A program made the translations under genes and the position numbers. Of a DNA stretch of 35,689 nucleotides, positions 128 through 35,689 are shown in pieces; the first letter of the stretch is position 1; every line of letters begins with the position of its first letter. Below the pieces are notes generated by a model. The model saw only the letters and a program-made list of their open reading frames with translations. It did not search any database and had not been told where the DNA came from. The DNA is from Sphingomonadaceae bacterium (GTDB lineage: Bacteria > Pseudomonadota > Alphaproteobacteria > Sphingomonadales > Sphingomonadaceae), in NCBI GenBank assembly GCA_020847445.1, contig JADLBY010000013.1, positions 1 through 35,689 on the forward strand, in the 5' to 3' direction.

Positions 128-1012
128 TCAGCCCTTCAATACACTCATCAGCGTCGTGCCCAATTCGCTCGGCGACGCGGCGACGCGGATGCCTGCGGCT
201 TCCATCGCTGCGATCTTCGATTCGGCGTCGCCCTTGCCGCCCGAAACGATCGCACCGGCATGGCCCATGCGACGGCCCGGAGGCGCGGTGCGGCCTGCGA
301 TGAACCCGGCCATCGGTTTCTTGCGGCCGCGCTTGGCCTCGTCGATCAGGAACTGTGCCGCCTGCTCTTCGGCATCGCCGCCGATTTCGCCGATCATGAT
401 GATCGATTCGGTGGCGTCGTCGGCTAGAAACAGTTCGAGCACGTCGATGAAGTTGGTACCGTTGACCGGATCGCCGCCGATACCGACCGCCGTGGTCTGG
501 CCCAGACCTTCATTGGTGGTCTGGAATACCGCTTCATAGGTCAGCGTGCCCGAACGCGAAACGACGCCGACCGATCCCTTGGAGAAGATGTTGCCCGGCA
601 TGATGCCGATCTTGCACTCGCCGGGGGTGAGCACGCCGGGGCAGTTGGGGCCGATCAGGCGCGATTTGCTGCCTGAAAGCGCGCGCTTCACCCGCACCAT
701 ATCGAGCACCGGGATGCCTTCGGTGATGCAGACGATCAACGGCACTTCAGCGTCAATGGCTTCGAGGATCGAGTCAGCCGCAAATGGCGGCGGAACATAA
801 ACGACCGAAGCATCGGCGCCGGTGACCTGCACCGCTTCGGCAACAGTATCGAACACCGGCAGGTCGATATGCGTCGTTCCGCCCTTGCCGGGGGTAACGC
901 CGCCAACCATCTGCGTGCCATAGGCCAGCGCTGCCTGGGTGTGGAAGGTTCCGGTCTCGCCGGTCATCCCCTGGGTGATGACCTTGGTGTTCTTGTTGAC
1001 CAAAATGCTCAT
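128..1012 (-). CDS. sucD: Succinyl-CoA ligase (ADP/GDP-forming) alpha subunit
   Basis: The TCA-cycle enzyme converts succinyl-CoA to succinate with substrate-level phosphorylation, as an alpha/beta complex with SucC. The 294-aa protein has the usual family length. The N-terminal CoA-binding Rossmann fold begins at Met1 ([18 protein letters not shown]), the CoA-loop GGVTPGKGG is at about residues 37-45, and the phosphohistidine loop [14 protein letters not shown] places the catalytic His at residue 251. The frame is open 56 codons further upstream, but Met at 1012 is chosen because it matches the family N-terminus and has GGAGAGG just before it. It lies 37 bases downstream of mdh on the same strand and is probably co-transcribed. 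SucC, normally adjacent to SucD, is not next to it in this window. Confidence 0.97.
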
Positions 1013-1049
1013 GAAAATCCTCTCCGGGATATGGGTCGTAACAGGTCGC

Positions 1050-2087
<1,038 letters not shown>

Positions 2088-2180
2088 TTAGGCCGATTCG
2101 GCTATCACGGCAACCCTATAAAGCCAGGGAGACCAGGCTTTTTATGATAACAGTTCGCAATAGCGTTAAACCCGCAATGT

Positions 2181-3563: not shown

Positions 3564-3585
3564 GCGACTCTCCCTCGACGCAACC

Positions 3586-4698
3586 CTATCGCGGTCCATG
3601 GCCCTCCGCCAGATAGTCTTCGGATTGCATTTCCATCAGCCGCGACACGGTGCGGTCAAATTCGAAGCGCCCATCGCCTTCGGGATAAAGCGCATCGGGT
3701 GCCGCATCGGCAGCGGCGAGCAGCTTGACCCGATATTCGTAAAGCGCATCGATCAGCGTCACGAAGCGCGCCGCCTCGTTGCGGTTCTGCGGCCCTAGCA
3801 CGGGAATGCCGACGATGATCACGGTGTGGAATCGACGCGCAATCGCCAGATAGTCCGCCGCGCCGCGCGCCTCGGCGCACAGCCGCTTGAACGAGAATAC
3901 CGCGACCCCTTTCAGCGCCTTGGGAACATGCATCGTCCGCCCGGCGCCAACATCGATATCGGTCGACGGCACATGCGCCCTGTCTTCGGGCGGATAGTCG
4001 GTCAGGCGGAAAAAGGTTTCGGAAAGCTCCCGCGTCGCCTCCGGCCCGTTGGGCACCAGCCAGGTGCGCGCCTGCCCCAGCCGGTCGCGGCGATAATCGG
4101 TCGGCCCGTCAAGCGCCATGACGTCAAGCCGCTGCTTCACAAGCGCAATAAAGGGCAGGAAAAGCTGGCGGTTGAGGCCATCCTTGTAGAGATCGTCGGG
4201 CGGGCGGTTGGAGGTGGTGATCACCGTTACCCCGGCATCGAACAGCCCGGCAAACAGCCGCGACATGATCGCGGCGTCGGCCATATTGCCCACCACCATC
4301 TCGTCAAAGCAGAGCAGCCGCGCCTCGTCGGCAAGCGCTGCCACCACCGGCGGAATCGGATCGCCCTTTTCCTTCTCGCGCTCGACCTTCAGCCGGGCGT
4401 GGATGTCGAGCATGAATTCGTGGAAATGCGCCCGCCTCTTGCGCTTCACCTGCACATTGTCGAAAAACAGGTCCATCAGCATCGATTTGCCGCGCCCGAC
4501 CCCGCCCCACAGATACAGCCCGCGCACCGGATCGGGCTTTTTGCCCAAGAATCGCCAGAGCGTGCTGCCGCGTGGCGGCACGGCTTCGAGTTGCTGCTGG
4601 ATGTCCGCCAGCTTGGCCGCGGCCCGCGCCTGATCGGCGTCGGGCTTGAGTTCGCCGGCTGCGACGAGCGCCTGATAGGCAGCAAGCAGCCCGGTCAT
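3586..4698 (-). CDS. zapE: Cell division protein ZapE / AFG1-like ATPase
   Basis: An AFG1-family P-loop ATPase. In E. coli ZapE acts on the Z ring under low oxygen or heat, and the mitochondrial homologue AFG1/LACE1 supports respiratory-complex turnover. The 370-aa protein has the family length. Walker A is GGVGRGKS (residues 65-72) in LYLWGGVGRGKSMLMD, and Walker B is LLCFDEM (Asp132-Glu133), followed by a sensor region (TVITTSNRPPDDLY). Its start codon overlaps the stop of the upstream thioesterase gene by 4 bases (ATGA, 4695-4698), indicating translational coupling. Lying directly behind sdhB and a thioesterase, it fits a respiration-linked operon. Confidence 0.93.
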   Translation of the reverse strand: MTGLLAAYQALVAAGELKPDADQARAAAKLADIQQQLEAVPPRGSTLWRFLGKKPDPVRGLYLWGGVGRGKSMLMDLFFDNVQVKRKRRAHFHEFMLDIHARLKVEREKEKGDPIPPVVAALADEARLLCFDEMVVGNMADAAIMSRLFAGLFDAGVTVITTSNRPPDDLYKDGLNRQLFLPFIALVKQRLDVMALDGPTDYRRDRLGQARTWLVPNGPEATRELSETFFRLTDYPPEDRAHVPSTDIDVGAGRTMHVPKALKGVAVFSFKRLCAEARGAADYLAIARRFHTVIIVGIPVLGPQNRNEAARFVTLIDALYEYRVKLLAAADAAPDALYPEGDGRFEFDRTVSRLMEMQSEDYLAEGHGPR

Positions 4699-11552: not shown

Positions 11553-11873
11553 CTATGCGGAAACTTCGGCAGCAACCCATTGCGCATAGGCGGGATGGGC
11601 GACGTCGACCTGCCACGACATTATCGCCGGAACCTTGTGCCGGTGGAGGCGCGCAACGCGATCGATAACGTCGCCTTGCCGGGCGGTTGTCGTCTTCAGG
11701 ATGACGGGGTGTTCCTCGGCGGTTTCGACCTCGCCTTCCCAGCGATAGTGCGAAATGACCGGTGGCAGCCGGTTGGCGCAGGCGATCAACCCCTCGGCGA
11801 GCAGTGCGCGACAGCAATCGAGCGCCTCACCCGCGCTCGGGAAAACGGCATAGACTATCGCCAACTCGTTCAT
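11553..11873 (-). CDS. cutA: Divalent-cation tolerance protein CutA
   Basis: A 106-aa CutA1 family protein, a small trimeric ferredoxin-like fold associated with copper and other divalent-cation tolerance. The family signature is visible: [20 protein letters not shown] (about 31-50), the HPVILKTT strand (about 55-62), and the C-terminal HPYEVPEI-equivalent [14 protein letters not shown] (about 77-90) ending with ATW-like YAQWVAAEV. The start lies 8 bases after the ctaA stop on the same strand, so the two are probably co-transcribed. A copper-handling protein next to a cytochrome oxidase assembly enzyme is a sensible pairing, though a functional link is inference. Confidence 0.93.
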
Positions 11874-11881
11874 GACCGGCA

Positions 11882-12931
11882 CTATCCCCTGTTCATGCCC
11901 AGCCGGTGCGCACCCCACACCGTCGTGGCGACAACCAGCGCGCCGACGGCCTGGTGCAGCACCGCGAGCACGATATTCATTCCGGTCATTACGGTCGCAA
12001 TGCCTAATAAAATCTGTGTCCCGAATGCTGAATGGATGGCGATCGAAACCTGCCTTGCACCGGCGCTTTTCAGGCGACGGGCCAAGACCACAAGGGCGAC
12101 CACCACCACCCACGCCCACCAGCGATGGATGAAATGGATCAGGAAAGGATCGTGGGTCAGCGCGAACCATGCGCCCCGGCTCCAGTCCACGCCTTCGGGA
12201 TAGAATCGGCCGTTCATCAGCGGCCAGCTGTTCGATACATAGCCGGCATTCAGCCCGGCCACCCAGGCACCGAACAGCAACTGGACAAACAGGATCAGCA
12301 ATATGGTTAAGCCGGCGCCGGTCAGCCGCGCGGGTTTTGCGCCGCCATTTCGTGCCAGCGCCCTCAGGTCGAGCGCGGTCCAGACCAGTCCGCCCATGAT
12401 CAGCAGCGCCGTCAGCAGGTGCACCGCCAGGCGGAAATGGCTGACATCGGTCCGCAGGCTGAGGCCCGACGACACCATCCACCAGCCGATCGCCCCCTGC
12501 AGTCCGCCGAGCGCCAGCAACGCCAGCAATCGTGGCTTGTAGCCGCGCGGGATCCGGCGCGTCACCCAATAGAAGGCCAGCGGCAGGGCAAAGGCCAGCC
12601 CGATCAGCCGCCCGAGCAGCCGGTGCACCCATTCCCAGAAAAAGATGAACTTGAACTGGGCGAGCGTCATGCCCGCAGGCCCGTTAATCTCGACATATTC
12701 GGGGATTTGCTTGTATTTTTCGAACTCGGCCATCCACTGCGCCTCGTTCAGCGGCGGGATCGCCCCGGTCACGGGCTTCCATTCGGTAATCGACAGCCCC
12801 GATTCGGTCAGCCGCGTTATCCCCCCGACAATCACCATCAGGAAGACAAGAAAGGCGACGGCCATCAACCAGTTAGCCAGTTTGAGCGGGGCGTCGGGCG
12901 TTTGGCCTGCGAAGGCGGAGCGGTTTTGCAT
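11882..12931 (-). CDS. ctaA: Heme A synthase (COX15/CtaA)
   Basis: Oxidises the C8 methyl of heme O to give heme A for aa3-type cytochrome oxidase in the inner membrane. The 349-aa protein has eight predicted TM segments as two four-helix halves. Characteristic sequences are GGITRLTESGLSITEWKPVTGAIPP (first extracytoplasmic loop), EXXHR-type FFWEWVHRLLGR, HFRLAVHLL, HFIHRWWAW and VLHQAVGAL, which supply the heme-binding histidines. It lacks the Cys pair of Bacillus CtaA, consistent with the alphaproteobacterial/mitochondrial type. Met at 12931 (MQNRSAF) is the chosen start; Met at 12994 is also possible, and neither has a clear SD. cutA follows 8 bases later. Confidence 0.95.
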   Translation of the reverse strand: MQNRSAFAGQTPDAPLKLANWLMAVAFLVFLMVIVGGITRLTESGLSITEWKPVTGAIPPLNEAQWMAEFEKYKQIPEYVEINGPAGMTLAQFKFIFFWEWVHRLLGRLIGLAFALPLAFYWVTRRIPRGYKPRLLALLALGGLQGAIGWWMVSSGLSLRTDVSHFRLAVHLLTALLIMGGLVWTALDLRALARNGGAKPARLTGAGLTILLILFVQLLFGAWVAGLNAGYVSNSWPLMNGRFYPEGVDWSRGAWFALTHDPFLIHFIHRWWAWVVVVALVVLARRLKSAGARQVSIAIHSAFGTQILLGIATVMTGMNIVLAVLHQAVGALVVATTVWGAHRLGMNRG

Positions 12932-13159
12932 CGGCGCGATATGATTGCAGGCGGGCCGCAACGCAAGGCCGGGCTGCATATGCCCATGCGGCAAATTTTA
13001 CCGACGAAAGAACAGCAAATTAGGCCCATTCGCCAGCAATGCGGCGGCGAAAAGGTGGAAAGCCGGTATTATGTTCCCTATATGAGTAACAATGTAACGC
13101 GGCTGCAATGAATAGTTTCATTGACGCGACAGTAATTTACGCATTGTTTGGAATGATTT
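12932..13159. other. Divergent intergenic region between ctaA and a small gene
   Basis: A 228-base divergent region that should contain promoters in both directions. It is less GC-rich than its neighbours towards 13080-13159. A short perfect hairpin pairs 13107-13112 with 13117-13122 (AATGAA/TTCATT). A TTGACG at 13121-13126 could be a -35 element for the plus-strand gene, but no convincing -10 follows at the right distance. Confidence 0.35.
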
Positions 13160-13525
13160 ATGAGCGGCATGGCTGGCAGCTCGCTTTCGAGCGCGCCCAA
13201 CGGAAAGATCATCGACTTTGATCGCGCCGAATTGCGGCGCGTGCCGTTTCAGGATTCGCTGTATCTATGGGTATCGGCCCGCACAACGGGCAGCGGCACC
13301 GAATTGCAGCTGGCGCCCCGCATCTATCACGATCGCCCGGACTATTGGGGGATCGAGGTGGTTGCCATCAATCCGCCGCGCGCGGCAAATGATGCGGGGC
13401 ACCCGGATGAAGCCCGCGCAGCCGAACGCGCGGTGCCGTTGACCGGGATCACCGGAACGCACGGCATAAGGGTCATCGGTGCCAGCCATAGCCAGCTTAT
13501 CGAGATTGACGGCGGGTCCTATTAG
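13160..13525 (+). CDS. Small protein of unknown function
   Basis: A 121-aa protein not recognised as a known family. It is predicted soluble, with no signal peptide or TM segment. An N-terminal Gly/Ser-rich stretch leads into alternating hydrophobic strands (KIIDFDRAELRRVPFQ, SLYLWVSARTTGSG, YWGIEVVAINPP), suggesting a small beta-rich domain, then an Ala/Glu-rich linker and a last strand pair (IRVIGASHSQLIEIDGGSY). The start has a GGAA-like SD about 6 bases upstream. It stands alone, divergent from ctaA and convergent with dsbD. Codon use matches the surrounding chromosome. Confidence 0.7.
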   Translation: MSGMAGSSLSSAPNGKIIDFDRAELRRVPFQDSLYLWVSARTTGSGTELQLAPRIYHDRPDYWGIEVVAINPPRAANDAGHPDEARAAERAVPLTGITGTHGIRVIGASHSQLIEIDGGSY

Positions 13526-13708
13526 GGTCGCAACCCGTTGTCATGGGGCGGGGGCAGGCCGCGATGCCTTTTCGAAGGCAGCACCTCAACATCGGCCTGC
13601 CTCCAAACCCCTTTTGACCGCCGCGCGGTCGCCCATGCAGCCGGGCCAATCCTGTACAAACACGCTCCCGCCGTCCAGCCCGTTGGCCGGACGCACGATC
13701 CGCTTGCG
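13526..13708. other. Convergent intergenic region with nested hairpin
   Basis: A 183-base gap between two converging stops. Bases 13553-13561 (GGCAGGCCG) pair perfectly with 13593-13601, extended by ATG/CAT after a 2-base bulge. Inside, 13566-13580 forms GCCTT-TTCG-AAGGC. No strong T-run follows on either strand, so this could be a cruciform repeat or a weak bidirectional terminator. No gene is seen. Confidence 0.4.
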
Positions 13709-15781
13709 CTACTTCTCCAGCGCCTCGGCCAGAACCGCTGGCGTCAGCAGTTGCGGCAATATCCGCGGTTCGGCGCGGCGCGGATAATAAAGGTAAAGCG
13801 GCACGCCCGACCGCCCGTGGGTGGCGAGGAAGCGCGCGATTTCCGGGTCGCGCCGGGTGAAATCCCCGACCATCACCCTGACGCCCTTTTGCCGGAACAG
13901 CCGGATCGTCTCTTCCCGGTTGATGGCGGCCGCCTCGTTGACCTTGCAGGTCACGCACCAGTCCGCGGTGAAATAGAGAAAGACCGGATCGCCCGAAGCG
14001 CGGAGCGCGGCCAGCCGGTCGCTGTCAAAGGGCAGCGCGCCCGACAGGGTGGTCGTGCCGGACTGTGCTTCGCCATTGCTGTCGGGAAGCCGCGTTGCCC
14101 CGGCGGCGATGATGGCAACGGCACCGGTCAGCAGAAGCAGCGGGGCAAAGGCCAGGCGCGCCTGCAGCATCCTGTAACCGCATGCCAGCGCCAGCATCAG
14201 CACGGCCGCCAGAACCCCGATCAGCAGTCCGCCATCTCCCGAAAGCCGCGACAACAGCCAGAGCAAGGCAAGCGCGGTCAGCCCCATCGGTATCGCCATC
14301 GCCTTGCGAAACCATTCGAGCCAGCGCCCGGGGCGGGGCAGCATCGCGCGCAGTCGCGGGACATATGCGATCAGCAGGAAGGGCAGGGCGATGCCGAGCC
14401 CCAGACAGCCGAAAAGCAGCATCCCCTCTGCCGGAGGTAGCAGGATCGCAGCCCCCATCGCCGCCGCCATGAACGGCCCGGTGCACGGCGTCGCCACCAT
14501 TGCGGCCAGGACGCCGGTCCAGAACGAACCCGACAGCCCGGCGCGTTGCGCCAGCCGCCCGCCAACCGAAAGCCCGGGCAGTTCGAACAGCCCGGCGAGA
14601 TTGGCCGTCACGGCGACCATCAGCACCAGCAGCGCCAGCACGACCGCCGGCTCCTGCAACTGAAAGGCCCAGCCGACCTGTTCGCCTGCGGATCGCAGCG
14701 CCAGCATGATCGCGCCCAGCGCGAGGCAGCTCAGCACCAGGCCGGCGGTATAGGCCAGCGCATCCTGCCGCGCCTCGCCTTCGTCACCCCCCGCCCTTGC
14801 CAGCGCCAGCGCCTTGAGGCCAAGGATCGGAAAGACGCACGGCATCAGGTTCAGCAGCATCCCTCCGGCCAGCGCGCCGAGCAGCAGCCAGAGCATGGCG
14901 GGCCGTTCGGGCGCGGCGGGCGCCTGCTTGTCATCGGCGGCGAGCGTCGCGATCATGGCACCACCCCGGGGAATATCGCCCGCGACGGTGCGCACCAGCA
15001 GCCCCTGTCCGTCCCCGATACGCAACAGGCCCTCCACCGGTCCGGCCTCTCCCTGCATTTCGGTTTCGATTACCAGCCAGTCACCGGCGCGGCGAGCGGT
15101 CTGCGGCGCGGCATAGCGGACACGGTTGGCGGTCAGCGCGAAGAACCAGGGCCGGTCGAGCGGCGCGCTGGCGGGATAGGGTATCGCGATGCGATAGATT
15201 TTGCCGTCGATGGCATAGCGCGCGCTCTGATCGAGCGGAACCGGAATCGCCGCGCGCCATTGGTCGAAGCGCTGGCGCTGCTGTGCCGTGACCGCGCCGT
15301 CCCCGGCACGCAGCGGCAGGTCGAAACGGCCCTGCTGCGGGACGCAGATAGTGTCGGTGCAGGCGAGCCAGTTCGCCGCAACCGCGATCGGCAGGGCACC
15401 GCCTGCGGGGACCGAACCGGCAATCTGCAGATCGACCAGCACCGCGTGCGGATCTTCGTAAACATGGTTCATCAGGCCGCCGATCAACAGCGGCCGTGGC
15501 ACCGGAAAGCGCGGCTTGCCTGCGGTTATTCCGGCGGGCAATTTCCATTCGAGCTGCAATCCCAGCCCGGCATCACCGGGATTTTCCCAATAGCCATGCC
15601 AGCCGGGCCGGGGTTCGAACAGAAAGGCCAGCGTCACCGAGCCGCCGGGCGCGGGCGCCATCGTTTCGGCAACCAGCCGCCCCGGAACATCGGGCTGCTG
15701 CCCGGTCACACCCTGCGCCGCCACCACCTGCGCCGAGAGCAGCGCAAGCGACAGCAACAGCCAGCGCAGCAGCATCGCCAT
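13709..15781 (-). CDS. dsbD: DsbD/ScsB-type thiol:disulfide interchange protein
   Basis: Transfers reducing power from cytoplasmic thioredoxin across the inner membrane to periplasmic disulfide partners. The 690-aa protein has three parts. After a signal peptide (about 1-22) there is a periplasmic domain with Cys pair LACTDTIC. The central membrane domain has two redox cysteines in NLMPCVFPILGLKAL and ATPCTGPFMAAAMG. The C-terminal thioredoxin fold has CVTC (Cys609, Cys612) in TADWCVTCKVN. Met at 15781 is favoured over the Met two codons later because it gives a 1-base overlap with the divK stop (TGATG). Partners may include cytochrome c maturation proteins. The coupling to divK is unusual. 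Confidence 0.93.
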   Translation of the reverse strand: MAMLLRWLLLSLALLSAQVVAAQGVTGQQPDVPGRLVAETMAPAPGGSVTLAFLFEPRPGWHGYWENPGDAGLGLQLEWKLPAGITAGKPRFPVPRPLLIGGLMNHVYEDPHAVLVDLQIAGSVPAGGALPIAVAANWLACTDTICVPQQGRFDLPLRAGDGAVTAQQRQRFDQWRAAIPVPLDQSARYAIDGKIYRIAIPYPASAPLDRPWFFALTANRVRYAAPQTARRAGDWLVIETEMQGEAGPVEGLLRIGDGQGLLVRTVAGDIPRGGAMIATLAADDKQAPAAPERPAMLWLLLGALAGGMLLNLMPCVFPILGLKALALARAGGDEGEARQDALAYTAGLVLSCLALGAIMLALRSAGEQVGWAFQLQEPAVVLALLVLMVAVTANLAGLFELPGLSVGGRLAQRAGLSGSFWTGVLAAMVATPCTGPFMAAAMGAAILLPPAEGMLLFGCLGLGIALPFLLIAYVPRLRAMLPRPGRWLEWFRKAMAIPMGLTALALLWLLSRLSGDGGLLIGVLAAVLMLALACGYRMLQARLAFAPLLLLTGAVAIIAAGATRLPDSNGEAQSGTTTLSGALPFDSDRLAALRASGDPVFLYFTADWCVTCKVNEAAAINREETIRLFRQKGVRVMVGDFTRRDPEIARFLATHGRSGVPLYLYYPRRAEPRILPQLLTPAVLAEALEK

Positions 15782-23053: not shown

Positions 23054-23127
23054 GGCCCGATGGCGGAGTGGTGACGCAGAGGACTGCAAATCCTTGCACG
23101 CCGGTTCGATTCCGGCTCGGGCCTCCA
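23054..23127 (+). tRNA. tRNA-Cys (anticodon GCA)
   Basis: A complete 74-nt cloverleaf. The acceptor stem GGCCCGA pairs with TCGGGCC, the anticodon loop is CTGCAAA (anticodon GCA, Cys), and the T-arm GCCGG-TTCGATT-CCGGC is perfect. The discriminator is U73, the hallmark of cysteine tRNAs, and CCA is encoded. A tyrosine integrase gene begins 166 bases downstream in the same direction, so the 3' end of this tRNA is the likely integration site. Confidence 0.97.
23101..23127 (+). other. Inferred attachment site (left end) in the tRNA-Cys 3' end
   Basis: CP4-type integrases commonly recombine within the T-arm and acceptor 3' half of a tRNA gene, leaving the tRNA intact. The T-arm to CCA segment is the natural candidate for attL. 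No second copy of this segment was seen elsewhere in the window, so the right end should lie beyond 35689. The exact crossover cannot be set from one end. Confidence 0.45.
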
Positions 23128-23249
23128 GAATCCTGTCAGCAGAAGCGTGCTGATGGTTGAAAAAACCTTAGATTTCAGCTAGTTTATGGGCATTCGCTGA
23201 TCGTCGGCGATTGCCTCTGTTTGCCTGTAAATGTGGCTGATGGGGGCAA

Positions 23250-23295
23250 ATTTGGGGGCCTCGCAAGGCCCCCCACAGAAGCGAGGCCCCCAAAT
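23250..23295 (+). promoter_or_regulatory. Integrase leader: two mutually exclusive hairpins over the RBS
   Basis: Bases 23250-23264 are a perfect 15-base reverse complement of 23281-23295. The right arm holds GCGAGG (SD, GAGG at 23283-23286) and the first two bases of the ATG at 23294. The left arm (23254-23261) can alternatively pair with 23266-23273 as an 8-bp stem with a CGCA tetraloop, which would free the SD. This is the geometry of a translational on/off switch. A protein-binding operator or arm-type integrase site is the alternative. Confidence 0.55.
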
Positions 23296-24622
23296 GGCGC
23301 TGACCGACACCGCAGTCCGCAAAGCGAAGCCCAAGAGTAAGCCCTACAAGATCACGGACGCGCAAGGGCTTTACCTGCTGGTCAATCCGAGCGGTAGCAA
23401 ACTCTGGCGCGTCAAATATCGGATCAACGGCGTGGAGCGAAAGCTGGCGTTGGGGTCGTATCCCGAAATCACGCTGGCGGAGGCGCGTTCGGCGCGTGAT
23501 GCGGCCCGAAGGCAACTTGCCCATGCGATTGATCCTAACGCCGCCAAGCGTCAGGCGCGTATTGAGGCGAGCATCCGCGCCAACAACAGTTTCGCCAGCG
23601 TGGCCGAGGAACTGATCGAGAAGAAAACGCGGGAGGGGTTGGCAGAGCCGACGCTGAAAAAGATGCGGTGGTTCGTGAAGCTGCTCGGCAGCGATTTCGG
23701 CAAGCGCCCCATCGCGGAAATCACGCCGCAGGAACTGTTGCACGAACTGCGTAAGCATGAGCGGCGAGGCCGGTTGGAAACGGCGAATCTTCTCCGAGCT
23801 TTCGCCAGCCGAGTGTTTCGCTATGGGGTAGCGACAGCGCGGGCCGAGCGCGATCCGGCCCAACTGCTGATAGGCGCGCTGACGACAGCGAGGGTCAAGC
23901 ATTTCCCCGCAATCACCGATCCGGTGGCTTTTGGCGCGTTGCTCCGGGCGATTGAGGATTATCAGGGCGATCCCGCCGTCATGTATGCCTTGAAACTCAC
24001 GCCCCACGTTTTCCAGCGTCCCGGCGAAATTCGGCATATGGAATGGGCGGAAGTGGATTTTGAAAAGGCGGTCTGGATCATCCCGGAAGGGAAGATGAAG
24101 ATGCGCCAGCCCCATTCAGTGCCGTTATCCCGGCAGTCACTCGCTATCCTAGCCGATATGCGCTCCCTGTCCGGCTCTGGACTTTATGTGTTCCCATCGG
24201 TCAGGACACGCGAAAGGCCGCTCAGCGAGAATACGATCAACGCCGCCTTGCGCCGCATGGGCTTTCCCAAGGACCAGATGACCGCTCACGGTTTCCGCAC
24301 GTCCGCATCTTCGCTTTTGAACGAATCCGGCAAATGGAACCCCGACGCCATCGAGCGGGCGCTTGCGCATATGGTCGCGGGCAGTGTCCGGCGCATCTAC
24401 AACCAATCGGCCTATTGGCGCGAACGCGTTGCAATGGCGCAATGGTGGAGCGACTATCTGGAAGAATTGCGGGATAGCGCCAATGTTCCCCGCCAACAGG
24501 AGAAGATTGAGCGATGGAGCACGATGACGACGCCCGCTCCCTTCGGAGAATTGTCTTACGGCTTCTCAATGAGGACGAAGATGAAGCACGAAGAGAACTG
24601 GACGACGTTATCCGCGCGGTAG
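23294..24622 (+). CDS. int: Tyrosine site-specific integrase (CP4/P4 type)
   Basis: Catalyses integration and excision at a tRNA 3' end. The 442-aa protein has an N-terminal DUF4102 arm-binding domain (MALTDTAVRKAKPKSKPYKI, about 1-85), a core-binding SAM-like domain (about 98-190), and the catalytic domain. Catalytic residues are Arg242 in QRPGEIRHMEW, His332-x-x-Arg335 in AHGFRTSASS, His359 in ALAHMVAG, and nucleophile Tyr369 in RRIYNQSAYW. Met at 23294 is the family start; the frame opens 21 codons earlier through the hairpin leader. The tail after the nucleophile is 73 residues, and its last ~36 codons overlap the next gene, so it may be a recent extension. Confidence 0.95.
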   Translation: MALTDTAVRKAKPKSKPYKITDAQGLYLLVNPSGSKLWRVKYRINGVERKLALGSYPEITLAEARSARDAARRQLAHAIDPNAAKRQARIEASIRANNSFASVAEELIEKKTREGLAEPTLKKMRWFVKLLGSDFGKRPIAEITPQELLHELRKHERRGRLETANLLRAFASRVFRYGVATARAERDPAQLLIGALTTARVKHFPAITDPVAFGALLRAIEDYQGDPAVMYALKLTPHVFQRPGEIRHMEWAEVDFEKAVWIIPEGKMKMRQPHSVPLSRQSLAILADMRSLSGSGLYVFPSVRTRERPLSENTINAALRRMGFPKDQMTAHGFRTSASSLLNESGKWNPDAIERALAHMVAGSVRRIYNQSAYWRERVAMAQWWSDYLEELRDSANVPRQQEKIERWSTMTTPAPFGELSYGFSMRTKMKHEENWTTLSAR

Positions 24623-26613: not shown

Positions 26614-26981
26614 AACTCGTTCGCCACACCGTCCGTCTGCCTGTGTCGCTCGACAAGGCGCTTCGTGCGCTCGCCGAGCGCCGAGGCACCAGCGTCTATG
26701 CGATGCTCCAGCGCAGCGTGAAAGCGGGCGTCGCGACGCTCGCCGACCCCGCCGCGCGCGATGCCATATCGGGGGAACTGGTCTCCGAACTGGCATCGGT
26801 CAGCAACCGCATTGTCGATGTTGAACATATGCTGGACCGGGCACTGTTCACCGCCTGCGCCGCCTATTGCTACGCCCGCAGCGCAGGGCTGGGCGAGCGC
26901 ACCACCGATGAAATCGCTGTCGCCGAGATCAACGAGGCCTATGATCGTCAGCGGCGGCTCTCGCAGGGGAAGCGGCCATGA
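26610..26981 (+). CDS. Ribbon-helix-helix-like mobilization accessory protein
   Basis: A 123-aa protein. The N-terminus (MKLVRHTVRLPVSLDKALRALAERRGTS) fits a ribbon-helix-helix strand followed by two helices (CopG/MobC/TraY-like), the fold used by relaxosome accessory proteins to bind oriT. The C-terminal two thirds are helical (VSELASVSNRIVDVEHMLDRALFTACAAYCYARSAG) and could bind the coupling protein. GGAGG precedes the start. The stop overlaps the traD start by 4 bases (ATGA), which supports a role in transfer. Homology was not searched; a plain transcriptional regulator is the alternative. Confidence 0.65.
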   Translation: MKLVRHTVRLPVSLDKALRALAERRGTSVYAMLQRSVKAGVATLADPAARDAISGELVSELASVSNRIVDVEHMLDRALFTACAAYCYARSAGLGERTTDEIAVAEINEAYDRQRRLSQGKRP

Positions 26982-28825
26982 CCGTATCCAACGATCGCCG
27001 CATCCATGCCGACGCCTTGCGCCGGCATCATCGGCTGAGCCAGTGGCAGCGGTTCAAGCGACAGGTGGGCGTCATGCTCGCATCGGTCGCCCTGGGCGCG
27101 ATCGGCGCGCCCTACGCGATGCTCGACAAGGACGAGCAATGGGCAATTGGCGTCTATGCCCATGCGCGGGGAGCGGTATGGATCGCCTTCAGTTCCGATC
27201 CGGCAATCACGGTCACATATGAGGGAAGGCAATATCGCGTTCCGGCTCGCGCGGTGGTTGCTGATCGCTATTATCGCGGATCGGTATCACGCCTCTTGTC
27301 GCTATCGGTCAAAGGCGGTCTGCTCGGTTTCGTGGGCTGGCTGTCCGGGTTGTTCCTCCTGCGCGGTGTCAGGGCGCGCCGTCGCGAGCGCGCCTTGCGC
27401 GATCGCGTCATCGCCGGAACCCTCGTCACCACCGAGAAGCAGCTCGCGGCGCTGACCGCCGCCGAAGCCCGACCTCATGCACTCGCCATCGGCGCGGTGC
27501 CGATCCCGGCGCGGCTCGAGACGCGGCACATGGCGATGATCGGCACGACCGGCAGCGGCAAGACCACCGCTCTGCGTCAGATGCTCGATGGGATCGAGGC
27601 GCGCGGCGAAGCGGCGCTGGTTTATGATACCAGCGGCGAGTTCATCGCGCATTATTATGATCCCAAGCGCGGCGACATCATCTTGAACCCGTTTGATGGT
27701 CGCTGCGCTTTCTGGTCGCCCTTCGCCGAGATCGCGCACCCCGCCGACGCCGACCGCATCGCGCAGCAGCTTATCACCGAGACCGGCCAGCATGATCGCG
27801 ATGTCTGGTTGGAAACCAGCCGCATCCTCGTCGCCAACATGATCCGGGAATTGTGGAAGGAGAAGAAATGCACGCTGCCGGACCTGCTCGAAGCGCTTCA
27901 GAAGTGGGACAAGGATAAGCTTAAGAACTGGCTGAAAGACACATCTTCGGCCCGGACATTCTCCGACGATGCCGACCGCGCCACCGGCAGTGTGCTTTTC
28001 ATGCTCGCGAAGGCCGCCAACCTCATTCAGTTCCTGCGAATGCCGAAGGACGGTGAGAAAGCTTTCGCCTTCCGCGACTTCATCGCGGGCCTCGACCAGC
28101 GCAAGGGCGCGCGCCCGTGGATATTCGTGCCGCGCAAGGAGGATTATTTCGAAGCGTCGAAACCGCTGCTCGCCTGCTGGCTCGAATGCGCGGCGAGCGC
28201 CGTGCTGGGCCTGCCCCCATCGCCCGACCGGCGCATCTGGTTCGTGCTCGACGAGCTGGCCGACCTGCCACGCGTCGATAACCTCGCGCGCGTCCTCCCC
28301 GAAGGCCGCAAGTTCGGCGCGGCGGTCGTGCTGACCTTTCAGGCGCTCGGCCAGATGCGACACCGCTATGGACCGCAGATCGCGGAATCGATGCTGGGCT
28401 GCTGCAATACCAAGCTGTTCCTGCAAACCATCGACAGCGAGACTCGCGTCTGGGCCAGCCAGACGATCGGCGAATGCGAAGTCGAGATCCAGACCATGAC
28501 CGACGCGCTCGCCGAGGGCGACGATGCGGCGCGCACGACCTTGGGCCGAATGCGGAAAATGCGGCCCGCCATTCTCGAAAGCGAACTCCGCCTGCCGAAA
28601 TATGAGGGATATTTGTTGTTCCCCGATGGCTTGCCTGTCGCACGGATCAAGCTCACCGCCGATCATATCGCGCGGCGTGGCAAGGCCCGCCAGCCGGGGT
28701 TCGTCGCGGGCGATCCGAAAACCACGCTTTGGCAGCAGGCAGTGCAGACCGCGCCGTCGTCTCCGTCTCAGCCCCCATCGCCGCAGCCGTCGCCGCCGCC
28801 ACACAAAGGCCGGGGGCCGGTCTGA
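26978..28825 (+). CDS. traD: TraD-type type IV coupling protein
   Basis: The hexameric inner-membrane ATPase that delivers the relaxase-DNA complex to the mating pore. The 615-aa protein has two N-terminal TM segments (about 29-47 and 113-130) with a short periplasmic loop, then the AAA+ domain. Walker A is GTTGSGKT (189-196), an early conserved stretch is YDTSGEFIAHYYDPKRGDIILNPFD, and Walker B is IWFVLDELADLP. A TraD_N-like DUF87 organisation is evident. The last ~25 residues are a Pro/Ser/Gln tail (SSPSQPPSPQPSPPPHKGRG) that looks like translated repeat rather than a folded domain. The stop overlaps the relaxase start by one base (TGATG). Confidence 0.92.
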   Translation: MTVSNDRRIHADALRRHHRLSQWQRFKRQVGVMLASVALGAIGAPYAMLDKDEQWAIGVYAHARGAVWIAFSSDPAITVTYEGRQYRVPARAVVADRYYRGSVSRLLSLSVKGGLLGFVGWLSGLFLLRGVRARRRERALRDRVIAGTLVTTEKQLAALTAAEARPHALAIGAVPIPARLETRHMAMIGTTGSGKTTALRQMLDGIEARGEAALVYDTSGEFIAHYYDPKRGDIILNPFDGRCAFWSPFAEIAHPADADRIAQQLITETGQHDRDVWLETSRILVANMIRELWKEKKCTLPDLLEALQKWDKDKLKNWLKDTSSARTFSDDADRATGSVLFMLAKAANLIQFLRMPKDGEKAFAFRDFIAGLDQRKGARPWIFVPRKEDYFEASKPLLACWLECAASAVLGLPPSPDRRIWFVLDELADLPRVDNLARVLPEGRKFGAAVVLTFQALGQMRHRYGPQIAESMLGCCNTKLFLQTIDSETRVWASQTIGECEVEIQTMTDALAEGDDAARTTLGRMRKMRPAILESELRLPKYEGYLLFPDGLPVARIKLTADHIARRGKARQPGFVAGDPKTTLWQQAVQTAPSSPSQPPSPQPSPPPHKGRGPV

Positions 28826-31584
28826 TGGTGGCGTCGGTATCGGCGCTGACCAGTTCGGCGCAGGCCAGCAGCTATTATGAGGCCGATGATTATTATGCCG
28901 AGGGCGGGCTGTCGCCATCCGAGTGGCAGGGCGCTGGCGCGGAGGCGCTGGGCCTGTCCGGCGAGGTCGATCGCGACCAGTTTCGCGATTTGCTCGACGG
29001 CAAGATCGGCGAGCAGCAGCTTGGCACCTATCGGGACGGGCAGTTGGAGCATCGCCCAGGCTGGGACGTGACCTTGAGCGCGCCCAAGTCGGTGTCGATC
29101 ATGGCCGAGGTCGCGGGCGATCGGCGATTGATCGCCGCGCATGGCGAGGCGGTCAAAACCGCTATGGCGCACGTCGAGACCCATATGGCCGCAACGCGCA
29201 TTCGTGACGGCGGCACTGTCACTCGCGCGGCGACCGGCAATCTGGTCGTGGCCAGTTTCCAGCATGGCACCAGCCGCGCCCAAGACCCTCAGCTTCACAC
29301 TCACAATGTCATTATGAACGCGACGCGGGGCGACGACGGCGCATGGCGCAGCCTTGAACCACGCGCCATCTATCAGCTTCAAAAGCAGATCGGCGCGATT
29401 TACCGGCAGGAGCTGGCGCTGAAGGTTCGCGAACTCGGCTATGAGATCGAGGTGGGCAAGGACTCGCTGTTCGAGATCAAGGGCGTGTCCGGCGAGGTCA
29501 TCGGGGCGTTCAGCACCCGCAGCGCCGAGATCGAGGCGGCGCTGGGTGAACGCGGCACAACCCGCGACGCCGCCAGCGCCGCCGAAAAGCAGATCGTCGC
29601 GCTCGATACTCGGCAGGCGAAGGTCGCGACCGATCATGCCGCCCTTGTTGCCGATTGGCGCGAGACGGCGAGCGCAGCCGGGTTCGGCCCGGACGCGCGG
29701 CTGGCGATGGTCAGGCAGGCCGAAGCCCATGCGGCCAGCCCCGCGCACCGCGCCGACATGGCCGAGCAGGCGACAATGGCGGATCGCGCTGTCGCCCATG
29801 CCGCCGACAAGCTCGGCGAACGGCAATCGGTCTTCTCTGCTGCTGCCTTGCAGGAGGAAGCCGGACGGATCGGGCTGGGCAAGGTCAGTTATGCCGAGAT
29901 CGGAGCCGCAATCGACGTCGCCACGAAACAGGGGGAGTTGATCGACCGGACCTTTCTCGACCGGCGCGGCGCGGAGTTCGCCGGGTTCACCACCCGGCAA
30001 AATGTCGAAACCGAAGCCAAGATGCTACGCATCGAGGCTGAGGGGCGCGGTGCGCTGTCTCCGATTGCATCGCCGCTCGCCGCCGCCAAGGTCGTTGCCA
30101 GCGCAGCGACACAGGCCGAGCGCGCGGGCTTTGGCTGGAACGCCGATCAGCGCGCCGCGACCGAGCAACTGCTGACCAGCCGCAACCGCATCACAGCCGT
30201 TCAGGGTTATGCGGGCACCGCCAAGACCTCGACCGTCCTCGCGACCTTCGCGCGCGAGGCCGAGGCGCGGGGCGTGTCCGTCGTTGCGCTCGCTCCCACC
30301 GCATCAGCGGCGATGGTGCTGGGCGAGGCATTGGGTGCGCGTAGCGATACGGTAGCGCGCCATCTGTTGTCGCCCGAGCGCCCGCATCAGGGCCAGTCTG
30401 TCGCGTGGATCGTGGATGAAGCATCGCTTTTGTCGGCCCGCGACACCGCGCGGCTGTTCGACCTGGCCGACAAGCATGATGCGCGCATTATTCTCGTCGG
30501 CGACGTGAAGCAGCTTGGGTCGGTAGAGGCAGGCGCGGCGTTCGCGCAGTTGCAGGGCGCGGGCATGGAAACCGCGAAGCTCGGCGAGATTGTTCGGCAG
30601 ACCAACGCAGCGACAAAGGAAGCGGTGCTGGCGTCGGTCGAGGGCGATGCCCGCAAGGCGCTGGCCGCGCTGGATCGCGGTGGCGGGCAAATCATCGAGA
30701 ATGCCGATCGCGCCGATCGGTTCGCTGCCATCGCGGAGCGATATGCCGGACTGGACAAGGAGGCCCGCGCTCGCACCCTTGTTATCGAGCCGTCGCGCGA
30801 GGGGCGCGATGCGCTGACAGCCAACATTCGTGCTGCGCTCGCCAGATCGGGCGCGCTGACCGGCCCGGCCGTCGCGATGCAGAGTCTCGCCAAGAAGGGG
30901 CTGACCCGCGCCGAGGCACGCGACCCTTTGAGCTACGACAAGGGCGATGTGGTGCGGTTCACCCGCGACTATGCCGACAAGGGCGTGATACGCGGGAAAG
31001 CCTATCACGTCGAAAGCATCGACCCGGCGAAGGCCGCCGTTGCTCTGAGATCAGAGGATGGGCGCGAGGTGGATTGGCGGTTGCGGCAATGGGGTGCGGG
31101 CAAGGTTCAGGCGTTCGAGCCGCAGCCGATGGACCTGAAAACCGGCGACGCCATCCGGTTCACCCGCAACGACCGCGAGGCGGGCCGGGTGAACGGCGGA
31201 CGCGGCGAGGTGGTCGCCGTGCACGAGCAGACCCGCACCGCCACCATCCAGACGCCGGACGGCAGGACGGAAACCCTCAATCTCGATGCCGCCCGCGACC
31301 GGCACATTGCCCATGCGTATGTCGATACTGCCTTCGCCGCCCAAGGCCGCACCGCCGATCATGTCATCATCCATGCCGACAGCGGCGCGACCAATCTTGT
31401 CGATCAGAAATCCTTTTACGTGGGCATATCCCGCGCCAAGGAATCCGCCACTATCTTCACCAATGATTGCGGCAAGTTGGTGTCCGCCATCAGCGAGCGC
31501 GCCGGACAGGTTCAAACCGCCATCGCGCAGGCCGCCATGCCGACGCCAGTTGCCGAAAAGGCGATGGGGGCCGGAATAGGGTAA
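28825..31584 (+). CDS. traI: MobF-family relaxase/helicase TraI
   Basis: Nicks oriT, stays bound to the 5' end and unwinds the transferred strand. With Met at 28825 the product is 919 aa. Catalytic tyrosines are in SSYYEADDYYAEGG (Tyr17/18 and Tyr23/24). The metal triad is His147 in FQHGTS plus His158 and His160 in PQLHTHNV, spaced as in TrwC. A RecD-like SF1 helicase follows: motif I GYAGTAKT (461-468), motif II DEAS (531-534) and motif III LVGDVKQLGSVEAG; near the C-terminus AYVDTAFAAQGRTADHV and FYVGISRAKE are motifs V and VI. Ala466 replaces the usual Gly before the Walker Lys. At 919 aa it is about TrwC size and lacks F TraI's extra domains. Confidence 0.93.
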   Translation: MVASVSALTSSAQASSYYEADDYYAEGGLSPSEWQGAGAEALGLSGEVDRDQFRDLLDGKIGEQQLGTYRDGQLEHRPGWDVTLSAPKSVSIMAEVAGDRRLIAAHGEAVKTAMAHVETHMAATRIRDGGTVTRAATGNLVVASFQHGTSRAQDPQLHTHNVIMNATRGDDGAWRSLEPRAIYQLQKQIGAIYRQELALKVRELGYEIEVGKDSLFEIKGVSGEVIGAFSTRSAEIEAALGERGTTRDAASAAEKQIVALDTRQAKVATDHAALVADWRETASAAGFGPDARLAMVRQAEAHAASPAHRADMAEQATMADRAVAHAADKLGERQSVFSAAALQEEAGRIGLGKVSYAEIGAAIDVATKQGELIDRTFLDRRGAEFAGFTTRQNVETEAKMLRIEAEGRGALSPIASPLAAAKVVASAATQAERAGFGWNADQRAATEQLLTSRNRITAVQGYAGTAKTSTVLATFAREAEARGVSVVALAPTASAAMVLGEALGARSDTVARHLLSPERPHQGQSVAWIVDEASLLSARDTARLFDLADKHDARIILVGDVKQLGSVEAGAAFAQLQGAGMETAKLGEIVRQTNAATKEAVLASVEGDARKALAALDRGGGQIIENADRADRFAAIAERYAGLDKEARARTLVIEPSREGRDALTANIRAALARSGALTGPAVAMQSLAKKGLTRAEARDPLSYDKGDVVRFTRDYADKGVIRGKAYHVESIDPAKAAVALRSEDGREVDWRLRQWGAGKVQAFEPQPMDLKTGDAIRFTRNDREAGRVNGGRGEVVAVHEQTRTATIQTPDGRTETLNLDAARDRHIAHAYVDTAFAAQGRTADHVIIHADSGATNLVDQKSFYVGISRAKESATIFTNDCGKLVSAISERAGQVQTAIAQAAMPTPVAEKAMGAGIG

Positions 31585-31726: not shown

Positions 31727-34504
31727 ATGAACGCCGTTGAGATTGAAGAAGCTGTTTCCGCTCTGGCGGAGCGCCCGTTCGATGCGGCGGAATTTCCGTT
31801 TCAGTTCCTTGAAGCCTTTGGGAGCAAGGCGACAACAATTAAGCGCCTGCGCGCCGTCAAAGGTTCGACCAACGCCTCTGATCTTCCCGGCGCGGTCTTG
31901 CAGCGCAACAATATCCATATCGCCGTTGCCGCGCCCGGCGAGGTTTCTGCCGCCTTCGCTGCGCTCAAAGTCAGTCCCGCGACCGCCAAGGCAAAGGCCA
32001 AGTTCATCCTCTCTACGGACGGCGACACCTTTGAAGCCGAGGACACTGATTCCGGCGAAACCGTCGCCTGCACCTTCGTCGAGTTCCCCGACCATTTCGG
32101 GTTTTTCTTGCCGCTTGCTGGCATCACCACCGTCCGGCAGGTGCGCGAAAGCAGTTTCGACATCCGCGCGACCAGCCGCCTCAACCGGCTGTATGTGGAG
32201 CTGCTGAAAGACAACCCCGAATGGGGCAGCGCCGAGCGCCGCCCCGACATGAATCATTTTATGGCCCGGCTGATCTTCTGCTTTTTTGCGGAGGATACGG
32301 ACATCTTTCATCGCAGCTACCCCTTCACCGGCACCATCGAGAAGATGAGCGACCGGGATAGCTCCAACACCCATGAGGTGATCGGTGAACTGTTCCGCGC
32401 GATGAACACGCGCAAGGAGGATCACGAAGCCGCGAATATTCGCAACTGGGCGCGGCCTTTTCCCTATGTGAACGGTGGGCTGTTTTCCGGCAGCCTTGAC
32501 GTGCCGCGATTCAGTCGCATCGCGCGATCCTATCTGCTGCACATCGGCAGCCTCGATTGGACCAAGATCAATCCGGACATCTTCGGGTCGATGATTCAGG
32601 CGGTCGCTGATGACGAGGAGCGCGGTGCGCTCGGGATGCACTACACCAGCGTTCCCAACATCCTGAAAGTCCTGAACCCGCTCTTTCTGGACGACCTGCG
32701 CGCGCATCTGGCCGAGGCTGACGACAATCCGCGCAAGCTGTTGAACCTGCGCAACCGCATGGCGAAAATCCGCGTGTTTGATCCCGCGTGCGGCAGCGGC
32801 AATTTTCTTGTTATCGCCTACAAGGAAATGCGGGCCATAGAGGCCGAGATCAACCGACGGCGCGGTGAAGAAGGCCGCGCGTCCGATATTCCGCTTACCA
32901 ATTTTCGTGGGATCGAACTGCGCGACTTTCCTGCCGAAATCGCGCGCCTCGCACTTATCATAGCGGAGTTTCAGTGCGACGTGATGTATCGCGGCGAGCG
33001 GCTCGCCCTGGCCGAGTTCCTGCCGCTCAATGCACAAAATTGGATAACCTGCGGCAACGCTCTGCGGCTCGACTGGCTTTCCATCTGCCCGCCGACCGGG
33101 ACCGGCGTGAAGCTGACAGGTGATGACTTGTTTTCCACGCCGCTCGATCAGGCGCAAATCGACTTCGAGAACGAAGGCGGCGAGACGTATATTTGTGGGA
33201 ACCCGCCTTATTTGGGGAGTTCTTGGCAGTCGCCAGAGCAAAAACGGGAGATCGAGGATGTTTGCGCGGGACGTGTGAAAACGTGGAAGTCACTCGATTA
33301 CGTGGCTGCGTGGCTGATAAAAGCGTCTGATTATCTCCAGAAGACGTTTGGAGCGTTCGGGCTCGTCGCTACCAAAACGGTCTGTGAGGGCGAGCAGGTT
33401 CCTGCATTGTGGCCGGTAATTTACAATAATGGACATGATATAATATTCGCTCATACGCGATTCGATTGGTCGAACCTCGCGAGCAATCAAGCGGGTGTCA
33501 CTGTCGCCATTCTTGGCGTCGGTCCGGATAAGTCGCCGAAAAAGATATACGACCTGACGAGTGTCAAGATTGTTGAGAACATTACGCCATATCTCACACC
33601 GGGCGATCGAGTTATCGTTTCTAAAAGTCCAAGCGATCTCTTTCGGAAACCGAAAATGTTGCGCGGAAATATGCCTACGGATGGCGGGAACCTTATCCTG
33701 TCGCCAGAGGACGCGCGATCTTTCATATCGACTGGAATCATACCGGCCGAATTTGTCAGACCTTTCGTGGGGGCCGACGAATTGACATCCGGCAAGCGCC
33801 GATTCTGTCTTTGGATTGAGCGCGAAAAACTATCTCAAGCGATGGCCAATGATTTCCTGAGCGAACGCATCTCGCAAGTCGATAAATTCCGAAAATCAAG
33901 TTCTGCGCCAACGACGAGGAACACCAAAGTTCCGCCATATAGATTTATGCAAATTGAGGGAGTGTCCACATCGCATTCCATCGCTGTAGGGGCGATAACC
34001 ACGGATAGAAGGGAATTTCTTCCTGCATCACTATTCGGACCAGATGAGATATTTTCCAATAAATGCTACGTGCTTTATGACGCTGAATTATGGACGCTTG
34101 CGCTTCTGGTCTCAACATTGCACAGAGTTTGGATTGGCACTGTTTCGGCCAGAATGCGAATGGGCTTTTCATATACGAACACCCTCGGTTGGAATACCTT
34201 TCCGTTGCCTATCACTGGCCTCACCGAAAAAAACAGGGATGACCTGACCCGCTGCGCGGAGGACATTCTGGTGGCGCGGGAGGCGCATTTCCCTGCGACC
34301 ATCGCTGACCTCTACGATCCCGAGACAATGCCCGCTGATCTGCGCGAAGCGCACGAGCGCAACGACGAGGTATTGGAGCGCATCTATATCGGACGGCGAT
34401 TCAGGAACGACACCGAACGGCTCGAAAAGCTGTTCGAGCTATATACCAAAATGACCGCGGGCACGGGAGCGGCGCGGAAGCGGAGGGCGGGGGCGAGCAC
34501 GTGA
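31727..34504 (+). CDS. MmeI-like N6-adenine DNA methyltransferase, no visible nuclease motif
   Basis: A 925-aa class I SAM-dependent DNA methyltransferase with MmeI/type IIL-like architecture. An N-terminal domain (about 1-165) is followed by a helical spacer (about 170-310) with the family signature IFGSMIQAVADDEERGALGMHYTS. The catalytic domain has motif I FDPACGSGNF (351-360) and motif IV NPPY (492-495), gamma-class adenine N6. Then come a target-recognition region (about 500-830) and a C-terminal helical tail. In MmeI the N-domain carries a D...ExK nuclease; here the equivalent stretch reads SDLPGAVLQRNNIHIAVAAP and has no E-x-K. The recognition region is coded by distinctly AT-richer DNA. 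The stop overlaps the helicase GTG start (GTGA). Confidence 0.9.
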   Translation: MNAVEIEEAVSALAERPFDAAEFPFQFLEAFGSKATTIKRLRAVKGSTNASDLPGAVLQRNNIHIAVAAPGEVSAAFAALKVSPATAKAKAKFILSTDGDTFEAEDTDSGETVACTFVEFPDHFGFFLPLAGITTVRQVRESSFDIRATSRLNRLYVELLKDNPEWGSAERRPDMNHFMARLIFCFFAEDTDIFHRSYPFTGTIEKMSDRDSSNTHEVIGELFRAMNTRKEDHEAANIRNWARPFPYVNGGLFSGSLDVPRFSRIARSYLLHIGSLDWTKINPDIFGSMIQAVADDEERGALGMHYTSVPNILKVLNPLFLDDLRAHLAEADDNPRKLLNLRNRMAKIRVFDPACGSGNFLVIAYKEMRAIEAEINRRRGEEGRASDIPLTNFRGIELRDFPAEIARLALIIAEFQCDVMYRGERLALAEFLPLNAQNWITCGNALRLDWLSICPPTGTGVKLTGDDLFSTPLDQAQIDFENEGGETYICGNPPYLGSSWQSPEQKREIEDVCAGRVKTWKSLDYVAAWLIKASDYLQKTFGAFGLVATKTVCEGEQVPALWPVIYNNGHDIIFAHTRFDWSNLASNQAGVTVAILGVGPDKSPKKIYDLTSVKIVENITPYLTPGDRVIVSKSPSDLFRKPKMLRGNMPTDGGNLILSPEDARSFISTGIIPAEFVRPFVGADELTSGKRRFCLWIEREKLSQAMANDFLSERISQVDKFRKSSSAPTTRNTKVPPYRFMQIEGVSTSHSIAVGAITTDRREFLPASLFGPDEIFSNKCYVLYDAELWTLALLVSTLHRVWIGTVSARMRMGFSYTNTLGWNTFPLPITGLTEKNRDDLTRCAEDILVAREAHFPATIADLYDPETMPADLREAHERNDEVLERIYIGRRFRNDTERLEKLFELYTKMTAGTGAARKRRAGAST

Positions 34505-35689
34505 CAGACGAGACAAGACAGGTTCCTTCGGTATCGGTTTCCTATTCCCGTAACGGCAGCTCCACCAAGGCCAACGCCCTTGGCATGAGGCCAATGCAGG
34601 AACGCGCCTACGAAAAGCGCGGCGAGCAATATCTGCTCATCAAGTCGCCGCCCGCGTCCGGCAAGAGCCGCGCCCTCATGTTCATCGCACTCGACAAGCT
34701 GGCCAATCAGGGCATCAAACAGGCGCTCATCGTGGTGCCGGAAAAGACCATCGGATCATCCTTCGCGGATGAACCTCTGTCGAAGTCCGGCTTCTGGGCC
34801 GACTGGGAGGTGCAGCCGAAATGGAACCTGTGCAACGCGCCCGGTGCCGACAACGGCGGCAAGGTCAATTCCGTTGGCGCTTTTCTGGACAGCGATGACA
34901 CGGTGCTGGTCTGCACTCACGCCACGTTCCGCTTCGCCGTGGACAAGTTCGGTGTGGAGGCGTTCGATGACCGCCTGATCGCCGTGGACGAGTTCCATCA
35001 CGTTTCCGCCAACCCCGACAACAAGCTGGGCCTGCACTTGGGCCAGTTCATCGCCCGCGATAAAGTGCATATCGTCGCCATGACCGGCTCGTATTTCCGG
35101 GGTGATGCCGAGGCCGTCCTTGCCCCGCAGGACGAATCCAAATTCGATAGCGTCACCTATACCTACTATGAGCAACTCAACGGCTATCAGTATCTCAAAC
35201 AGCTCGACATCGGCTATTTCTTCTATTCCGGCGCCTATGCCGACGACATCCTTGCCGTCCTCGATCCCGCCGAAAAAACCATCATCCACATCCCCAACGT
35301 CAATTCGCGCGAAAGCACGAAGGACAAGATCAGGGAGGTGGAGCATATCATCGAGGAGCTGGGCGACTGGCAGGGCACCGACCCGGCGACCGGCTTTCAA
35401 TTGGTCAGGACCGCCGATGGGCGCACCTTGCGCATCGCCGACCTGGTGGACGACGATTCGGCCAAGCGCGACCGTGTTGCCGCCGCGCTCAAAGACCCGG
35501 CGCAGAAGAACAACCGCGATCATGTGGACATCATCATCGCCCTCGGCATGGCAAAGGAAGGTTTCGACTGGATTTGGTGCGAGCACGCGCTGACGGTCGG
35601 CTATCGTTCAAGTCTGACGGAGATTGTGCAGATTATCGGCCGCGCCACCCGCGACGCTCCCGGCAAGGCTCGCGCTCGCTTCACCAACC
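34501..35689 (+). CDS. SF2 DEAD/DEAH-like helicase (partial, runs off the window)
   Basis: The first 396 codons of a superfamily 2 helicase starting at GTG 34501, coupled to the methyltransferase by a 4-base GTGA overlap. Motifs in order: a Q-motif-like GMRPMQERAYEKR (28-40), motif I SPPASGKS (49-56), motif II DEFH (163-166), motif III MTGSY (194-198), a motif V region ALGMAKEGFDW (347-357), and motif VI QIIGRATR (377-384). No nuclease is seen in this part; one could lie in the missing C-terminus or the next gene. A helicase translationally tied to a DNA methyltransferase points to a restriction-like or methylation-guarded defence module (DISARM- or type I/III-like in logic, not in exact gene set). 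Confidence 0.9.
   Translation, partial: MTDETRQVPSVSVSYSRNGSSTKANALGMRPMQERAYEKRGEQYLLIKSPPASGKSRALMFIALDKLANQGIKQALIVVPEKTIGSSFADEPLSKSGFWADWEVQPKWNLCNAPGADNGGKVNSVGAFLDSDDTVLVCTHATFRFAVDKFGVEAFDDRLIAVDEFHHVSANPDNKLGLHLGQFIARDKVHIVAMTGSYFRGDAEAVLAPQDESKFDSVTYTYYEQLNGYQYLKQLDIGYFFYSGAYADDILAVLDPAEKTIIHIPNVNSRESTKDKIREVEHIIEELGDWQGTDPATGFQLVRTADGRTLRIADLVDDDSAKRDRVAAALKDPAQKNNRDHVDIIIALGMAKEGFDWIWCEHALTVGYRSSLTEIVQIIGRATRDAPGKARARFTN

Follow-up and report, generated by a model that had tools for sequence, protein, structure and literature searches.

An MmeI-like methyltransferase and a helicase at a contig end

The stretch of DNA analysed here (the window, 35,689 nucleotides) is the entire contig JADLBY010000013.1 of a Sphingomonadaceae bacterium (GenBank assembly GCA_020847445.1, a draft of 232 contigs), with no sequence beyond position 35689, and it ends in an adenine-N6 methyltransferase gene of MmeI architecture that overlaps a superfamily 2 (SF2) helicase gene by the four letters GTGA (Table 1). 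By gene set and order, these are the first two genes of the dnmA(yeeA)-yeeB-yeeC cluster, as described in the available portions of PMC7261158 and PMC9973331; the window holds a new copy of a known gene cluster with disputed function, and not the uncharacterised module that the original prediction, made from the letters of the window, had proposed. Its outline, an MmeI-type methyltransferase overlapping an SF2 helicase on an integrative element, is borne out by the open reading frames (ORFs), the Pfam matches, and the tRNA-Cys, integrase, TraD and MobF genes upstream.

Five MmeI domains of Pfam lie in order along the methyltransferase, each above its cut-off (MmeI_N, residues 1-162; MmeI_hel, 174-253; MmeI_Mtase, 329-608; MmeI_TRD, 626-828; MmeI_C, 834-911), and the protein matches the MmeI structure 5hr4 with an E-value of 6.4e-134; among the control genomes, that of B. 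subtilis matches MmeI_TRD. The nuclease site of the N-terminal domain has been lost, as predicted: where five MmeI-like relatives retain FIDLFW...VEQK, the aligned site of the window methyltransferase reads SDLPGAVLQRNNIHIAVAA, in which the aspartate of the D...ExK motif is kept and the glutamate and lysine are gone. With these two residues replaced, the enzyme is not an MmeI-type (Type IIL/IIG) restriction enzyme, which would carry an intact D...ExK in this domain. The pattern D-x8-12-[DE]xK occurs in one of 69 DnmA-type proteins (the window's included), at locus L124, and is there taken to be fortuitous, since the surrounding stretch is unlike the aligned site. Despite the lost site, the PADLOC profile PDLC03598, named Type IIG restriction enzyme, matches the methyltransferase at 868.5 bits, so the family is likely to be mislabelled by profile-based callers.

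In the helicase, ResIII of Pfam is above its cut-off, DEAD and Helicase_C are both below theirs, and SPPASGKS, VDEFHH and QIIGRATR were read by eye as helicase motifs. Relatives were drawn from the best 80 of at least 543 confirmed genome loci, a sample that leans to close relatives of the window helicase and whose titles include Pseudomonadota and Bacillota. Counted from the match start, the helicase frame runs to 671-696 residues in 78 of the 80 loci, L096 having 484 and L072, cut by its contig, 661; the window therefore holds slightly more than half of the protein. Over the best segment, the window helicase is 89% identical to the copies at L056 and L061, from Tumebacillus and Fictibacillus, a sign that the gene was transferred recently or is under very strong constraint.

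A GIY-YIG nuclease gene follows in relatives

Behind the helicase gene lies a GIY-YIG nuclease gene in 79 of the 80 loci, and the methyltransferase gene stands ahead of it in 77 (several of these matches being partial, at ends of contigs or of the fetched stretches); all four misses, of methyltransferase or nuclease, fall at contig ends. The original prediction had placed the missing cleavage or inhibition in either the helicase or a gene beyond the window; in relatives the likely cutter is this neighbouring GIY-YIG gene and not a part of the helicase. In the window copy this third gene lies beyond the contig end or has been lost.

The same operon is found in the Bacillota loci L056, L061, L068, L080 and L091. 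It is also carried on plasmids: 263 plasmid records match the helicase, and the order methyltransferase, helicase, annotated GIY-YIG nuclease was seen in all five that were opened; in two of these, further genes separate methyltransferase from helicase. On one plasmid, from Nitrobacter (L021), the module is flanked on one side by an annotated CBASS cyclase gene and SAVED protein gene, and on the other by a pair annotated AAA ATPase-McrC (227-4213 and 11585-14887). Three YeeC nucleases that were scanned all match Pfam MUG113 and T5orf172 above the cut-offs, and none of three YeeC proteins tried matched a PADLOC profile. Six YeeC residues, G260, Y263, K283, G285, R294 and E326 (L074 numbering), are conserved at 1.00 in 79 sequences and form the presumed GIY-YIG site, assigned by eye.

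Pairing of helicase and nuclease was also seen in 148 related genomes, searched at E 1e-20 for these two proteins: the helicase was found in 17, the nuclease in 16 and both in 15, and the genomes in which they do not pair are the window's own, G069 (a short helicase fragment) and G122 (a nuclease fragment). The methyltransferase query matched 24 of the 148, more distant MmeI-like proteins included. Five genomes (G061, G062, G065, G097 and G103) encode an MmeI-like enzyme with VEQK intact, and none of them is among those with YeeB or YeeC; one genome (G021) has the helicase and nuclease on a 4391-base contig with no methyltransferase match.

Conservation and covariation of the three proteins

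Identities were compared over 63 of the 80 loci. The other 17 were dropped because the methyltransferase match was absent or incomplete, because no nuclease was present, or because the methyltransferase frame fell below 850 residues (L066 and L077). Mean pairwise identity is 81.0% for the helicase, 75.0% for the methyltransferase N-terminal domain, 62.9% for the nuclease and 41.9% for the target recognition domain (TRD), by far the most variable domain. Identity in the TRD is uncorrelated with that in the helicase (r 0.04; 296 of 999 permutations as high), whereas the N-terminal domain (0.47), spacer (0.51) and core (0.43) all follow the helicase (0 of 999 permutations each), as does the nuclease (0.66); the C-terminal domain of the methyltransferase is well conserved and correlates weakly (0.14; 79 of 999). 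Such a pattern is as expected if the TRD alone sets the specificity of marking and cutting and the helicase contacts the methyltransferase elsewhere.

Genes inserted between methyltransferase and helicase

The methyltransferase and helicase genes lie within 150 bp of one another in 34 of the 77 loci, as they do in the window, and in the other 43 the interval measures 427 to 3668 bp and holds other genes. Helicase and nuclease, by comparison, are separated by -7 to 103 bp in 79 loci, with inserted genes in none, an asymmetry with a Fisher p of 1.5e-17 when relatedness is ignored. The inserted ORFs of at least 90 residues form 21 clusters, of which four consist of one minus-strand ORF each and may not represent genes, and two of the 43 occupied slots lack an operon-strand ORF of this size. 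Ten inserted proteins from ten clusters were scanned with Pfam, ten with PADLOC and ten with NCBIfam. Pfam named four of its ten (YhcG/DUF1016, RhuM, AlbA_2 with HATPase_c_4, and GmrSD_N) and gave no match for the other six. An AbiEii match in the slot adjoins a weak AbiEi match, the protein at L111 matches DrmC weakly (19.7 bits against a cut-off of 133), and some occupants are nuclease- or toxin-like. Two families drew attention by eye: that of L110 5171-6004 (277 residues, six loci), whose L110 member had no scan match and ends in a HEPN-like R...H stretch, and that of L094 5588-6001 (four loci), whose L124 member had no scan match and carries a D...QxK stretch as in Mrr-type nucleases.

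The available portions of the literature on the cluster contain no description of genes interrupting the methyltransferase-helicase interval that we met; PMC9973331 mentions that dnmA of some bacteria has an uncharacterized protein family in its neighbourhood, possibly another instance of these insertions. In Type I loci, rlo genes occur as inserts, and PrrC is kept inactive by the Type I enzyme to which it is linked until a phage anti-restriction peptide sets it free (PMC2610378). By analogy, it is a guess, and less likely than not, that the dnmA-yeeB interval is a dedicated cargo slot, whose occupants (YhcG/DUF1016, RhuM, Schlafen-AlbA_2, GmrSD, AbiE, PLD-like and several unnamed families) might be second-line effectors restrained by DnmA-YeeB-YeeC and released, as PrrC is, when a phage blocks restriction; the window would then be the empty-slot form.

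The surrounding integrative element

The tRNA-Cys gene upstream of the pair adjoins the integrase and is for that reason the likely site of integration; genes for a coupling protein and a relaxase lie between the integrase and the methyltransferase (Table 1). Farther upstream, Pfam matches were obtained for 12 of the 20 proteins scanned, and these proteins look chromosomal.

Table 1. Features of the window, with the evidence on which each assignment rests.
Feature	Position	Strand	Basis or remark
tRNA-Cys(gca)	23054..23127	+	likely integration site
Tyrosine integrase	23231..24622	+	Pfam Arm-DNA-bind_3, Phage_int_M, Phage_integrase
TraD/TrwB-type coupling protein	26978..28825	+	profile matches
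MobF relaxase-helicase (TrwC/TraI)	28729..31584	+	profile matches; true start may be inside the listed ORF
DnmA/YeeA-like adenine-N6 methyltransferase, MmeI architecture, nuclease site lost	31727..34504	+	925-residue ORF; Pfam, PADLOC profiles, MmeI match, N-domain alignment
N-terminal domain, residues 1-165, PD-(D/E)XK-like fold	31727..32221	+	D52 kept; E and K of ExK replaced
Target recognition domain (TRD), variable part	33602..34210	+	Pfam MmeI_TRD; identity profile
YeeB-like SF2 helicase, first 396 of about 690 residues	34501..35688	+	GTG start; ORF open at window end; cut by contig end

A probable Type I-like restriction-modification system

From the domains of the proteins, the order of their genes, the lost nuclease site of the N-terminal domain and the GIY-YIG gene conserved next to the helicase in relatives, all of them observed, we suggest, with a probability of roughly 70%, that dnmA-yeeB-yeeC is a three-protein restriction-modification system working like Type I. 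The methyltransferase would read the target and methylate an adenine; at an unmethylated target, its conserved N-terminal part would recruit YeeB, which would use ATP to translocate along the DNA, and YeeC would make the cut. A single TRD would then direct methylation and cleavage alike, so that a change of specificity could leave helicase and nuclease as they are. PMC7261158 credits the Type I-like idea to Morgan et al. 2009, which it also cites for homologues of MmeI that have no nuclease motif and are flanked by yeeB- and yeeC-like genes; our literature searches found no paper demonstrating the mechanism. In the available text of PMC7261158 DnmA methylates GACGAG, and in that of PMC9973331 the three genes are conserved, phages show no avoidance of the DnmA site, and Vibrio crassostreae is cited as becoming more sensitive to some phage subclades when dnmA and yeeB are deleted.

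Several points weigh against this proposal. In B. subtilis, dnmA has no effect on transformation (PMC7261158), and loss of yeeB or yeeC has no effect on three phages (PMC9973331). Some copies may be broken, namely those at L096, where the helicase frame stops at 484 residues, and at L066 and L077, where the methyltransferase frames are short; in the 148-genome search, moreover, a stop falls within four of the 16 nuclease matches and six of the listed methyltransferase matches, which may be only the match overrunning the gene end. The predicted helicase structure is poor (mean pLDDT 59.8). The identity correlations do not prove docking of helicase on methyltransferase, as they also reflect shared descent, and since core and spacer track the helicase equally with the N-terminal domain, no docking surface is singled out.

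The window copy itself may be broken, for its own assembly shows neither the rest of the helicase nor YeeC: the YeeC query, which matched 16 of the 148 related genomes as a positive control, gave no match there, nor did a query with the C-terminal part of the helicase, for which there was no such control. A truncated remnant serving methylation only would account for this, yet the frame is open to the end of a contig in a 232-contig draft, so the remainder may simply be unassembled, and we regard a remnant as unlikely. A different explanation, and the conclusion drawn for B. subtilis in the available text of PMC9973331, is that DnmA is an orphan regulatory methyltransferase, YeeB and YeeC being the relic of a restriction system. 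Relics would be expected to decay faster than is seen here, where helicases of the 80 loci match the L021 query at 76-93% identity over the best segment, the frame is full-length in all but L096 and the contig-cut L072, and the residues of the presumed YeeC site do not vary across 79 sequences; a relic is, to our mind, quite improbable. That the module blocks the replication of unmarked DNA without cutting, as BREX does, is very improbable, given that 79 of 80 loci have, behind the helicase, a GIY-YIG protein with an invariant presumed site.

Between them, the variable TRD set against a near-constant motor and the cargo slot make it testable whether the module is a Type I-like restriction system and whether further defence genes are carried in it. 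The module is widespread on plasmids and chromosomes, and in the PADLOC profiles its methyltransferase bears a Type IIG label.

Comparison with known systems

The original prediction had found no match to Type I, BREX or DISARM, and no profile match assigns the module to any of them. PglX of BREX, DrmMI of DISARM and mad2 of MADS are likewise adenine methyltransferases, and they give partial PADLOC matches to the window enzyme (DrmMI, 2.4e-32 over residues 482-887; mad2, 1.2e-08; PglX, 3.3e-06 or weaker). BREX was rejected at 25.6 bits or less for PglX in NCBIfam, against cut-offs of 400-900, and MADS with the methyltransferase far under the NCBIfam MAD2 cut-off. DISARM was rejected for want of a DrmA- or DrmD-type helicase: the window part of the helicase and the full-length L021 protein gave PbeA and SngC matches only (E up to 0.01), and among the PADLOC profiles listed no DISARM or BREX profile matched the helicase.

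The cluster resembles B. subtilis DnmA(YeeA)-YeeB-YeeC, as far as PMC9973331 is available, in having an MmeI-like methyltransferase without the nuclease motif, a helicase and a T5orf172/GIY-YIG protein in the same order, the third gene being seen in relatives; it differs in that the window copy ends at the contig end. The B. subtilis YeeB and YeeC lack stretches present in V. crassostreae, according to the same source. MmeI, of Type IIL, itself cuts through D70...E80-x-K82 (available text of PMC4833311), whereas the window enzyme has lost the glutamate and lysine, and in this cluster helicase and nuclease each have a gene of their own.

As in Type I systems, the SF2 motor would be a separate protein directed by a methylase and its DNA recognition. 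Type I enzymes are built from separate HsdM, HsdS and HsdR subunits, with the nuclease fused to the motor. The module is not Type I proper, since in place of HsdM and HsdS it has a one-chain methyltransferase with its TRD, and the nuclease, in relatives, is a GIY-YIG gene of its own. A further likeness to Type I is that foreign genes interrupt some of the loci, as with the rlo inserts and the prrC linkage (available text of PMC2610378).
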